A DNA stretch of 43,824 bases from an uncultured Bacteroidia bacterium. GTDB lineage: Bacteria; Bacteroidota; Bacteroidia; Bacteroidales; UBA932. Location: assembly GCA_902785065.1 (NCBI GenBank), contig CACZXH010000023.1, positions 1-43,824 of the forward strand. The letters are read 5' to 3'. The notes under the pieces are model-generated. The model made no database searches. It was not told the origin of the DNA and saw nothing but the letters and a program-made list of their open reading frames with translations. Shown here piece by piece: positions 9,346 to 12,654 of this stretch. Position 1 is the first letter of the stretch; the number at the start of each line of letters is the position of its first letter. Made by a program: the position numbers and the translations under genes.

Positions 9346-10725
9346 ATGAAGAAAGCACTGCTCATCCTCATCGCCATCTCCGGCACCCTGTCGCTCAACG
9401 CTCAGAACAAGAAGGGCGGCATTGACGCCAAGCTCCTCGGTGAAATCAGCCAGGGATACGAAGGAACGGCCGCCGACAAGGCCCTCCGCAATGCCCTCAA
9501 CACCACAGCCATCAACACCCTGGCCCTGAATGCGGACAACATCCCGATGGACACCCGCTTCTCCGACGTGGTGAAGACCAAGGGCCGCACCAACCAGCTC
9601 TCCTCCGGCCGCTGCTGGCTGTTCACCGGCCTCAACGTCATGCGGGCCAAGATGATTGACAAGTTCGACATGGGCCCCGTCGTCCTGTCCCAGAACTATA
9701 TCTTCTTCTACGACCAGCTGGAGAAAGCGAACCTGTTCCTGCAGGGCATCATCGACACCAAGAACCTCCCGGACGACGACCGCACCGTCGACTGGCTCTT
9801 CGCCCACCCGATCGGAGACGGCGGCCAGTTCACCGGCGTGTCCAACCTCATCATGAAGTACGGCGTCGTCCCGTCCGAGGTGTTCCCGGAGAGCATGATT
9901 GCCAACAACACCGCCCAGATGCGCGCCCAGATTACGAACAAGCTGCGTGAAGACGGCCTCCGCCTGCGCCAGGCGCCCAAGGGCACGGACCTGCAGGCCA
10001 TGAAGACGGCCCAGCTCAAGGAAATCTACCGCATCCTGGCGCTCTGCCTCGGCGTCCCGCCGACCGAGTTCACCTGGACCCGGACCGACTCCAAGGGTAA
10101 TGTCGTGAACACGAAGCAGTACACCCCGAAGTCCTTCTACGAGGAGTACATCGGCACGGACCTCGAGAACAACTACATCATGGTCATGAACGACCCGTGC
10201 CACGAGTACTACAAGATCTACGAGATCGACTACGACCGCCACGTCTACGACGGTGAGAACTGGGTGTACCTGAACCTCCCGGTCGATGAAATCAAGAAGA
10301 TGGCCATCGCCTCCATCCAGGACAACACGGCCCTCTACTTCTCCTGCGACGTGAACAAGTTCCTCCTCCGGGACAAGGGCTTCGCAGACCTGAACAACTT
10401 CGACTACGAGTCCCTGATGGGCGTTTCCTTCGGCATGGATAAGAAGGAGCGCATCTACACGCACGCCAGCGGTTCTACGCACGCGATGACGCTCATTGCG
10501 GTGGATCTCAAGGACGGCAAGCCGGTCAAATGGATGGTGGAGAACAGCTGGGGCGCGAACTCGGGCTACCAGGGCAACATCATCATGACGGACGAGTGGT
10601 TCGACGAGTACATGTTCCGCCTGGTGGTGGACAAGAAGTACGTCCCGGCCTCCCTCATGAAATACTTCGACCAGAAACCCATCATGCTCCCGGCCTGGGA
10701 CCCGATGTTCCTGCCGGAGGAGTAA
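9346..10725 (+). CDS. Exported C1B cysteine aminopeptidase (bleomycin hydrolase family)
   Basis: 459 residues with an N-terminal signal peptide (MKKALLILIAISGTLSLNAQ). The papain-like catalytic set is present: Q84 and C90 in N-Q-L-S-S-G-R-C-W-L-F, H379 in S-G-S-T-H-A-M-T-L and N400 in V-E-N-S-W-G-A-N-S-G. These match peptidase C1B (PepC/bleomycin hydrolase), normally a cytoplasmic homohexamer that trims N-terminal residues. The Bacteroidales versions often carry a signal peptide, as here, suggesting a periplasmic peptide-trimming role. It follows the permease gene by 4 bp, so it is the last gene of the rbfA operon. No clear terminator is seen before the palindromic element at 10748. Confidence 0.93.
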   Translation: MKKALLILIAISGTLSLNAQNKKGGIDAKLLGEISQGYEGTAADKALRNALNTTAINTLALNADNIPMDTRFSDVVKTKGRTNQLSSGRCWLFTGLNVMRAKMIDKFDMGPVVLSQNYIFFYDQLEKANLFLQGIIDTKNLPDDDRTVDWLFAHPIGDGGQFTGVSNLIMKYGVVPSEVFPESMIANNTAQMRAQITNKLREDGLRLRQAPKGTDLQAMKTAQLKEIYRILALCLGVPPTEFTWTRTDSKGNVVNTKQYTPKSFYEEYIGTDLENNYIMVMNDPCHEYYKIYEIDYDRHVYDGENWVYLNLPVDEIKKMAIASIQDNTALYFSCDVNKFLLRDKGFADLNNFDYESLMGVSFGMDKKERIYTHASGSTHAMTLIAVDLKDGKPVKWMVENSWGANSGYQGNIIMTDEWFDEYMFRLVVDKKYVPASLMKYFDQKPIMLPAWDPMFLPEE

Positions 10726-10747
10726 TAGCCATCTCCTTTTTGGTTTC

Positions 10748-10859
10748 GGCAAGGTTATCTTCTGCAAACCGTCGCTTCGCGACCCCTCCCAAACAAGTTT
10801 GGGCCCCTCCCTCTTATATGGCCGAGGGTGGCCATAGGTTTGCAGAAGATAACCTTGCC
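10748..10859. repeat. Cloverleaf-like palindromic element, copy A
   Basis: Perfect 23-bp outer inverted repeats (10748-10770, starting GGCAAGGTTATC, and 10837-10859) enclose a 66-bp core with three hairpins: GTCGC-ttc-GCGAC (10771-10783), CCCAAAC-aa-GTTTGGG (10788-10803) and TATGGCC-gagggt-GGCCATA (10817-10836). The single-stranded links carry CCCTCCC and CCCCTCCCTC. A second copy with the same core but unrelated outer arms lies at 12039-12165. The element fills most of the spacer between the peptidase and permease genes. It encodes no protein of its own and would move, if at all, with help from elsewhere. Confidence 0.85.
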
Positions 10860-10882
10860 TCCACACCTTCTCAAACGTTATA

Positions 10883-11810
10883 ATGCACCGCTCACGCATT
10901 CGTGTTTTCCTTTTATTGCCTTTGGCTTTTCTCCTCTTTGACCTTCTGGTTGGGGGTGGAGGGATTTCGTGGGCAGAAGGAGCCATTCTCTGGAAGCTGC
11001 GGGTGCCGCGGGTAATGACGGCGGTGATTGCGGGGGGCGCCTTGGCGGCAAGCGGGACGCAGATGCAGGCGGTGTTCCGGAACCCGCTGGCCGATCCGCA
11101 CATCATGGGCGTGAGCGGCGGCGCGGGACTGGGCGCGGCCATCGCGACCATGGCGCTTCACCGTGGCGGTGGCGGCGTTCCTCGGGGCCTTCGTGGCGGC
11201 GGCGCTGGTCGTCGCGGTCTCGGCCCGGTTCCGGTCGGTGACGACACTGCTGGTGTTCGGCGTCATGCTCGGGTTCATTTTCAGCGCGCTGAGTTCGGTC
11301 CTGCAGTACACGGCAGGTGAAGAGAGCCTGAAACTGTTCTACAGTTGGATGGCGGGCAGCTTTTCCGGCTGTCGATACTTCGAGGTCGCGCTGATGGCCG
11401 GCGCCTTGGTCATCGGCCTTGTCCTTGCCTTCTGCAACGGCAAGGGACTGGATATTATTCTGTTCGGGGAGGAGTACGCGACCCTTTCCGGGGCCTCCAC
11501 CCGGCGCATCCTGTTCCTGTCGATGCTGTCGGCCTGCCTGATGACCGGTACGGTCACGGCCTTCTGCGGCCCGCTCGGGTTCGTGGGCATCGTCGCCCCG
11601 CACCTTGCCCGCCGCATCACGGGCTCTTCGGTCCATAGGCAGGTCCTCCCCTGCGCCCTCGCGACCGGTGCCACCCTTGCCCTGGCGGCCGACATCCTCG
11701 CGAACCTCTGGCCCATTCCCCTTCCCGTGGGCTCCACCCTCGCCCTCATCGGCATTCCCTTGATCCTCACGCTCCTATTGCAGCAAAAAGCGTCGAATGT
11801 AAAACATTAA
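10883..11810 (+). pseudogene. FecCD/BtuC-type ABC importer permease, frameshifted
   Basis: Permeases of this family import iron-siderophores, haem or cobalamin through the inner membrane. The first part (10883 to about 11158) encodes the typical LRVPRVMTAVIAGGALAASG, then F-R-N-P-L-A-D-P-H-I-M-G-V-S-G-G-A-G-L-G-A-A. Homology then moves to another frame from about 11160 to 11810, continuing TVAVAAFLGAFVAAALVVAV, G-F-V-G-I-V-A-P-H-L-A-R-R and the C-terminal helices. The break is one extra base or two missing near 11159 (CTT-C-ACC). Compared with BtuC the joint also seems about six residues short. This is either decay or a sequence error. The ATPase gene follows after 76 bp; no binding-protein gene is nearby. 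Confidence 0.85.
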
Positions 11811-11886
11811 TACCCAACCAATTACACCAGATTGACCGCTCTCACCAGCGCAGTCACAACCGCATAAATCATTGGAAACCAACAAC

Positions 11887-12654
11887 ATGCATTCTACGGC
11901 ACTTCGGGTTGAACACCTGACGATCGGGTACGGGGACCGAACCCTGGTCCGGGACATCTCTTTCGAGCTGGCCCCGGGCGAATGCGTACTGCTGGCCGGG
12001 CCCAACGGGACCGGGAAAACGACGCTGTTGAAATGGCTAGCTTCCGGGGGTATAGGTCCCGAAAACCTCCGGTCGCAAAGCGACCTCCGTCCCTCCCATA
12101 AATGGGCCCCTCCCTCTCATGTGCCGGGGGTGGCACAGTTTTCTGGACCTATACCCCCGGAAGCTGCCGTCGTACTTATACCCACAAACATCCCCAAAGT
12201 GAAAGGGTTCACGGTCGAGGCGTTCGTGCGGACGGGGTGCTACCGGGAGAGCGATTGGCGGGGGCGGATTTCGGCGGAGGTCGAGGGAAGGATGGAGGAG
12301 GCCCTGAAGATGCTGGGAATTGGGGAGCTGCGGAAGCGGGACATATCGACCTTGAGCGACGGGGAGTTCCAGAAGGCGTGCCTGGCGACAGGATTGACCC
12401 GGAGGGCCGAGGTACTGCTGCTGGACGAGCCGACGGCGCACCTGGACGTGGAAAACCGAATCGATGTGCTGCGGACGCTGCGGGAGGTCGCCCGGAAGAC
12501 GGGGACGGCCGTCCTGTTCTCCAGCCACGACCTGCACGACGCCCTGCAGGTGGCCGACCGGGTGTTCGCCCTCACCCGTGACGGGCGTTTCCTGGCCAGC
12601 GCAGGTACCGATGTCCTCCGGGCGGCCTTCCCCGCCCTCGCCAATCTCCGCTAA
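11887..12654 (+). CDS. FecE-type ABC transporter ATPase with an in-frame palindromic insert
   Basis: 255 residues from the ATG at 11887 (a TTG at 11872 is in frame but unlikely). It has Walker A G38-P-N-G-T-G-K-T45, signature L156-S-D-G-E, Walker B VLLLDEP (D180, E181) and the H-loop SSHDLHD, so it should power the adjacent FecCD-type importer. Between Walker A (LLKWLA) and AAVVLIPTNIPKVKGF lies a Pro-rich, low-complexity stretch, residues 52-93, encoded entirely by palindromic element copy B. The usual segment there leads to the Q-loop, and no obvious Q-loop glutamine is left. The reading frame is intact through the insert. Whether the protein still works is unknown. It converges on the regulator gene, the two stops overlapping. 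Confidence 0.85.
   Translation: MHSTALRVEHLTIGYGDRTLVRDISFELAPGECVLLAGPNGTGKTTLLKWLASGGIGPENLRSQSDLRPSHKWAPPSHVPGVAQFSGPIPPEAAVVLIPTNIPKVKGFTVEAFVRTGCYRESDWRGRISAEVEGRMEEALKMLGIGELRKRDISTLSDGEFQKACLATGLTRRAEVLLLDEPTAHLDVENRIDVLRTLREVARKTGTAVLFSSHDLHDALQVADRVFALTRDGRFLASAGTDVLRAAFPALANLR
12039..12165. repeat. Cloverleaf-like palindromic element, copy B (inside the ATPase gene)
   Basis: Outer inverted repeats 12039-12059 and 12145-12165 (21 bp perfect, starting AGCTTCCGGGGG) are extended inward by one mismatch and GAAAAC/GTTTTC (12061-12066 with 12138-12143). The core has GGTCGC-aaa-GCGACC (12071-12085), CCCAT-aa-ATGGG (12095-12106), the shared CCCCTCCCTC and TGTGCC-gggggt-GGCACA (12120-12137). 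Stems 2 and 3 differ from copy A by compensating changes. It is read in frame as residues 52-93 of the ATPase. Confidence 0.85.

Follow-up and report, generated by a model that had tools for sequence, protein, structure and literature searches.

The window analyzed here, a stretch of DNA of 43,824 nucleotides, contains two palindromic elements with a similar core and different outer arms. The palindromes are real, and they lie where an earlier note had placed them (10748-10859 and 12039-12165), with the predicted order of parts in both copies. The arms of copy 1 (10748-10770/10837-10859) are 100% complementary over 23 bp and those of copy 2 (12039-12066/12138-12165) are 96% complementary over 28 bp, with one mismatch; the self-complementarity that had been claimed for the arms thus held, but, as described below, their uniqueness did not hold everywhere. 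Arm pairing was well above chance, the median arm length being 26 in 164 elements as compared with a median score of 4 (99.9th percentile 20, maximum 25) for a background of 3000 random places in 225 registers each, drawn from sequence that may itself include elements. The parts of the two copies and the genes around them are as follows, with no strand assigned except where + is given.

9346-10725, +: gene upstream of copy 1, peptidase C1-like (Pfam PF03051, 2e-135)
10748-10770: copy 1 left arm, 23 bp, perfect (sequence)
10771-10783: copy 1 hairpin 1, GTCGC/GCGAC (sequence)
10788-10803: copy 1 hairpin 2, CCCAAAC/GTTTGGG, of which the CCC belongs to the CCCTCCC link (sequence, structure covariation)
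10809-10813: copy 1 pseudoknot strand CCCTC, partner 10824-10828 (covariation)
10817-10836: copy 1 hairpin 3, TATGGCC/GGCCATA, loop GAGGGT (covariation)
10824-10828: copy 1 second pseudoknot strand GAGGG, in the hairpin 3 loop (covariation)
10837-10859: copy 1 right arm (sequence)
10883-11320, +: FecCD permease gene downstream of copy 1, the first segment of a split frame (Pfam PF01032, 7e-22)
11872-12654, +: ABC transporter ATPase gene that hosts copy 2 and stays in frame across it (Pfam ABC_tran, 1e-20; insert-free homologues)
12039-12066: copy 2 left arm, 28 bp, one mismatch (sequence)
12071-12085: copy 2 hairpin 1, GGTCGC/GCGACC (sequence)
12095-12106: copy 2 hairpin 2, CCCAT/ATGGG (sequence)
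12107-12116: copy 2 link 2, CCCCTCCCTC (sequence)
12120-12137: copy 2 hairpin 3, TGTGCC/GGCACA, loop GGGGGT, off the pseudoknot consensus (sequence, covariation set)
12138-12165: copy 2 right arm (sequence)

The FecCD permease is spread over two frames (ORFs 10883-11320 and 11163-11810), through either a frameshift or an assembly error. Elsewhere in the window there is a 46-nt direct repeat, 96% identical (33747-33792/40555-40600), which is unrelated to the palindromes. An Rfam search restricted to positions 10600-12400 of the window (1801 bases) gave 4 matches with E values of at most 1, none of which reached its gathering score.

Both window copies are members of a mobile repeat family of small palindromes. 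Combined core sequence patterns located 14 copies in the source genome, to which a covariance model built from 50 copies, with 14 candidates scored in this genome, added 3 divergent copies on contigs C28, C32 and C7. By pattern, 120 of 400 genomes of the genus were positive, the source genome included, so that presence within the genus is patchy; the maximum was 21 places per genome (G195), and all such copy numbers are lower bounds because the number of candidates scored in a genome search is limited. Of the 295 genomes of the order that were searched with the covariance model, 5 were positive, namely the source genome, one of another genus in the same family, and three from other families that carry divergent relatives. 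A core pattern of the same kind occurs in at least 116 stretches of named genomes; among the matches listed, 80 of 80 titles were those of Bacteroidales or Bacteroidia assemblies, and many referred to stomach samples from goat, sheep, deer, buffalo or yak. Viral contigs, searched with one core pattern, gave 0 matches. These searches showed that further copies exist, with a wide spread in genus and order, in genomes that are mostly metagenome assemblies, which lose elements at the ends of contigs and in which palindromes may be misassembled. The elements are 81-210 bp long (130 measured, with one of 212 that contains unread bases excluded from this range), and in size and copy number the family agrees with MITEs (<500 bp, many copies).

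Comparison of the copies showed a conserved fold on the bottom strand, which consists of a long closing stem, three hairpins and a pseudoknot. The pseudoknot, which was overlooked in the first reading, joins the hairpin 3 loop to the adjacent link 2, and its pairing rests on covariation: of the 156 cores that have both links (a count that omits 17 places without the first link), 153 have complementary bases at the two variable positions of link 2 and of loop 3, as TC/GA in 145, GT/AC in 4, CC/GG in 3 and AC/GT in 1. The copy 2 sequence, with the loop GGGGG, is among the 3 exceptions. In 50 aligned bottom-strand copies, the structure of 37 named pairs, pseudoknot included, had 96.3% of 1802 cells paired, as compared with 38.5-51.3% in slid controls, the former figure being flattering because the diverse copies were chosen and the structure was derived from the same copies. 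Double changes were present in 370 cells, as compared with 101 on average in shuffles, and the covariation score was 0.511, against 0.146; none of 500 shuffles attained any of five structure measures, in a comparison where kinship among sequences can beat shuffles without any structure. Both sides varied in all 15 arm pairs of the alignment, and RNAalifold reported double changes in 23 of 32 pairs. The paired cells and double changes bear out the earlier claim that the structure is under selection. RNAalifold, which is unable to write pseudoknots, favored the CCCTC/GAGGG helix over hairpin 3; the pseudoknot helix and hairpin 3 may therefore alternate instead of coexisting. Hairpin 2 or hairpin 1 is hugely expanded at four loci (L116, L064, L091 and L084, with cores of 102-152 nt), possibly a place for cargo.

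Mismatches within the arms bear on which strand is folded. Among 3918 pairs in 158 distinct arms there were 104 mismatches, 71 of which are A·C or C·A on the top strand, that is, G·T on the bottom strand, as compared with only 6 that are G·T on the top strand (binomial p 3e-15, with arms of kindred copies not independent). When positions 13-16, the GGGT[A/G]T hot spot, were left out, the bias was 38 vs 4, and in a set of 128 arms it was 57 vs 4 among 83 mismatches. The hairpins gave counts, bottom vs top, of 20 vs 1 (hairpin 2), 1 vs 0 (hairpin 1) and 44 vs 31 (hairpin 3, by a parse that overruns the stem). At hairpin 3 position 5 we counted 36 A·C/C·A and 12 G·T/T·G in 122 cores, values that are blurred by bulged copies, and the commonest imperfect stem of this hairpin was TGCGGCC/GGCCACA (14 cores). 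In the arms, the bias had the same sign in every gene-orientation class with more than 3 mismatches. Since it is seen with genes running either way, host mRNA is not its cause, and we excluded selection on host mRNA structure on the ground that the bias is alike in all orientations with enough mismatches. The element seems to use its own G-rich bottom strand in folded form, as RNA or as single-stranded DNA. The earlier note is thereby corrected as to strand, the conserved fold being that of the bottom strand and not the top. The A lies on the left arm in 58 of the 71 mismatches of A·C type; separately, we observed that in the motif GGGT[A/G]T, at arm positions 13-16 from the core, a left A stands opposite a right C in many copies. 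One thought is that this asymmetry is an editing-like signature. Targeting to the lagging strand was considered and dropped, as a GC-skew test of replication strand showed no bias (57 vs 75 of 132, p = 0.14).

To what extent the arms vary was judged from copies with identical cores. Twenty-one such pairs with dissimilar flanks were listed, 5 of which were set aside (three shared-arm pairs of RGIG4900 and two flipped same-site pairs, L003/L052 and L052/L125). We confined the comparison to the identical-core set, some of the 41 pairs with 1-2 core differences being same-site (L176/L179, L010/L179). In the 16 remaining different-site pairs, tallied by hand, 84 of 96 bases were equal at arm positions 1-6 (0.88) and 112 of 288 at positions 7-24 (0.39), the latter comprising 43 of 112 at positions 7-13 and 69 of 176 at positions 14-24. 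The value of 0.39 exceeds that expected by chance, and the arms have a weak consensus in common, GGAG..GGGTAT..CTTCCGAAACC, which is unexplained by a simple model of free arms. Similar behavior was seen within single genomes. The eight copies of G400 have one hairpin 1, hairpin 2 in five forms, and an inner CAGATGA[C/T] in 7 of the 8, with outer arms that look unrelated yet pair; in G906 the inner arm is common to 2 of 3 copies and the outer arms of all three differ. Terminal inverted repeats common to the copies, as expected of a MITE, were accordingly lacking in 16 of 16 pairs, where the outer arms differ. They were found in G876, where six copies form one set with identical arms and three copies another, and in RGIG4900, in three copies (L035/L050/L072); G824 has three copies with similar arms. 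Copies sharing arms, which the earlier note took as the sign of an ordinary MITE, were thus limited to G876 and RGIG4900 among the genomes looked at. At L324, L327 and L329 of G876 there is, in addition, a small extra hairpin of the CTCCATAAGTGGAG type at the bottom-strand 5' edge. Two subfamilies adjoin at L324, and at L279 (G400 C10) two elements adjoin, with the end of one core within ~50 bp of the next.

Copies at the same site in different genomes gave a different picture from copies at different sites. In 20 same-site pairs, some of which share a member, arms differed at 103 of 980 positions (10.5%; 877 equal), cores at 87 of 1384 (6.3%) and flanks at 1367 of 7834 (17.4%), so that arms change in place at ~1.7 times the rate of cores. 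Window copy 1 and its counterpart in G003 (L174) differ at 5 of 23 positions in each arm, with the changes compensated. From divergence between different sites together with stability at the same site, it follows that each copy has an arm sequence of its own, which changes rather little once the copy has inserted; as judged from these alignments, the arms are for the most part set at the time a copy arises. The description of a shared core with copy-specific arms was therefore upheld as to the core and for most arms, the exceptions being G876, RGIG4900 and same-site copies. Homogenization of the cores by gene conversion was considered and is unlikely, same-site copies retaining their site-specific hairpins across species.

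Our leading explanation, which we put forward tentatively, is that this is a non-autonomous, MITE- or RPE-like element that is moved in trans, is recognized by its fold, and has one arm re-made from the other. A trans-supplied enzyme would recognize the fold and not the arm sequence, and the element would move as one strand, RNA being somewhat likelier than single-stranded DNA, a preference that exists only because of the G·U-type pairs. While the element moves, one of its arms would be re-made by snap-back synthesis, that is, by copying the other, with the shared innermost 6 bp of the stem as primer. If one arm is copied from the other, the arms always match while their sequence is free to change, and we infer that arm copying at each move is the simplest mechanism for arms that are matching yet changing. 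The shared arms in G876 and RGIG4900 indicate that such re-making is not obligatory. The fuller proposition, that the element rewrites its own terminal repeats while moving, with an enzyme that reads the pseudoknotted fold and snap-back re-synthesis of the second arm, we regard as rather doubtful; if it is true, self-rewriting termini would constitute a class of transposition in which the end sequence is not recognized.

The main and strongest rival is an ordinary MITE, the arms of which were inherited from unseen donors and diverged along the mobile lineage with no rewriting, while the core was kept by mobility selection and the pairing by selection or quasi-palindrome correction. What renders this somewhat unlikely is that hairpins 1 and 2, which are variable in the genus, are identical in the 16 pairs whose arms, past the sixth base, agree at no more than 112 of 288 positions, that the G400 copies combine one hairpin 1 and mostly one inner arm with unrelated outer arms, and that arm change in place is only ~1.7 times core change. 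Yet an ordinary MITE would account for the arms common to copies in G876 and RGIG4900, the weak arm consensus, the three similar G824 copies and, at the insertion described next, the short direct repeat and the 12 innermost arm bases shared with L399.

That insertion, the one we could date well, is in G358 (contig C26, locus L368), a genome that is 56% complete, and lies between a gene that ends GACTAG in relatives and the next gene. The comparison covered 16 genomes including G358 itself, two of which (G550 and G148) are apparently one genome, having equal coordinates. Ten of 11 displayed relatives run GACTAGTG or GACTAATG uninterrupted at this site and have neither arm; the eleventh, G068, has a short unrelated stretch. 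ACTA flanks both sides of the filled site as a 4-nt perfect direct repeat, a candidate target-site duplication (BLAST overlaps are 4 to 10 nt, at the one insertion examined), and overlapping stop and start codons could also favor a repeat of this type. From the absence of the arms in unfilled relatives and the short direct repeat, we conclude that the core and both arms arrived together. The nearest paralogue seen, L399, is a 95% match over the core and has the innermost 12 arm bases in common but not the outer ones. The origin of the outer arm was not found among 13 genomes, where two near-matches in 4 places are, by our estimate, about chance.

These observations bear on target copying, in which the native target would serve as one arm and an inverted copy of it as the other. 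The earlier note had raised this possibility, and the ABC-ATPase site had suggested it to us: the left outer arm there coincides with codons that unfilled relatives (L178, L181) have as well, and in several species its reverse complement forms the right arm; also, by our reading, an arm at L280 pairs into a stop codon. Target copying is nevertheless improbable. It is contradicted at the only well-dated insertion, where 10 of 11 relatives have neither arm, and the empty site in the comparison of L371 with L215 likewise has neither, although deletion between short repeats is possible in that case. Moreover, the apparently empty ABC sequences may be deletion remnants, L346 and L180 being readable as shortened palindromes, and the arm consensus itself would encode the seemingly native ABC residues. 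We therefore dropped target copying on the strength of the L346 and L180 remnants, the filled relatives and G358. At the ABC-ATPase site most aligned relatives are filled, and in related species the loop contains the element either way round, another repeat, or remnants; insert-free homologous ATPases are found at L348, L349 and L352. Insertion into natural hairpins, hinted at by L243, was rejected as well, there being no hairpin in unfilled ABC homologues or at the G358 site. Shortened palindromes at orthologous sites (L346, L180, L144, L243) look like remnants of loss of the center and can be mistaken for empty sites. Another palindromic repeat, of the CATTCCGAGCGAAGCGAAGGAATCT type, was observed at L247 (13774-13824), L244 (16280-16310), L175 and L272 (19100-19124); as CATTCCGAGCGAAGCGAAGGAATCT-type repeats occupy sites that bear the element in relatives, unrelated palindromes share certain loops and gaps as hot spots.

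Elements also flip in place. Upstream of the MKEFEIA gene, L399 and L401 are in one orientation and L400 and L371 in the opposite one, and since the outer-arm mismatch of L399/L400 turned along with the core, the whole element flipped. Further flips are L003/L125 vs L052/L138, and L001 vs L136 and L007 vs L060, the latter two being among the 20 same-site pairs.

Copies of the element are found between genes and, in frame, within genes, in both directions. Of the 130 elements measured, 61 are within a reading frame that stays open over 30 codons or more to either side, a number to which chance contributes in G+C-rich DNA; the firmly established cases are those in the window's ABC ATPase and in RibF (both by Pfam), with frames open through the element. 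Three short peptides encoded by other host genes had no match in Pfam, and insert-length frame arithmetic by eye was uninformative because arm ends are fuzzy. No protein family recurred around elements in more than 6 of 117 sources, and the check for a linked transposase that had been suggested earlier, run on element-adjoining genes only, showed none and no recurrent mover. Several elements lie, by our reading, directly after stop codons. This placement, and the lower divergence of same-site copies relative to their flanks, would fit a structured RNA selected by the host (a terminator, processing or stability signal) that spread passively and was kept at each place for its function. We consider such an origin quite improbable, as copies inside genes show no preferred orientation (25 with the gene, 23 against it), the strand signal is alike in both orientations, copies lie in frame inside enzymes and flip in place, and presence in the genus is patchy (120 of 400). 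Least probable, and largely refuted, is the fast drift of arms in place under pairing pressure alone that the earlier note also proposed: compensated change in place does occur, as between window copy 1 and L174 (5 of 23 positions per arm), but same-site arms differ at 10.5% as compared with 17.4% for flanks, too slow for a 39% arm match on identical cores.

Mobile palindromes are usually defined by constant ends, and the window family reverses this logic, its ends usually varying and its structured core being constant. A testable question follows, namely what moves an element whose termini have no fixed sequence. Integron attC sites have a variable sequence and a conserved fold, and are recognized as the folded bottom strand; the family described here differs in that its core is conserved in sequence and its arms vary. 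In the open-licence literature we found no paper whose title or abstract start describes such an element. In REP/RAYT systems, it is a single-strand hairpin that is recognized. REP/REPIN-RAYT systems include GTAG- and CGTC-tagged repeats, with CGTC repeats in Bacteroidetes among five phyla, and in the accessible part of that report they resemble the window family in being palindromic and having many copies (PMC3733652). By the same partial account, however, REPs are units of 20-40 bp with a constant tag, whereas the elements described here are 81-210 bp, with three hairpins, a pseudoknot and variable arms, and the bases adjacent to their cores vary between copies. Repetitive hairpin-forming elements that invade a genome have likewise been described in sponge mitochondria, but in an animal organelle (PMC2800124, accessible part).

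Closer parallels are offered by MITEs and by Rickettsia palindromic elements (RPE), for which we refer to the accessible part of one report. MITEs, for example QMITE2, are short, with 20-30 bp inverted ends, a folded core, direct repeats and mobilization in trans, and terminal inverted repeats are their conserved hallmark (PMC10969869). The window family is likewise short, with inverted ends and a folded core, and the short direct repeat at one insertion may be of the same kind; it differs from MITEs in that the outer arms vary and the core is constant. RPE, of ~150 bp, lie in frame in unrelated genes and are translated with them (PMC10969869), and the window family also has palindromes in frame in protein genes, as in the ABC ATPase and RibF. 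RPE belong to another phylum, and the accessible part of the same report, compared by description only, includes no constant pseudoknotted core with copy-specific arms. In the present case the same structured element is in frame in conserved enzymes in many species of one genus, and such copies constitute a natural supply of new protein loops, as described for Rickettsia. In summary, the family behaves like a MITE or like the Rickettsia palindromic elements, but with outer inverted repeats that are variable.
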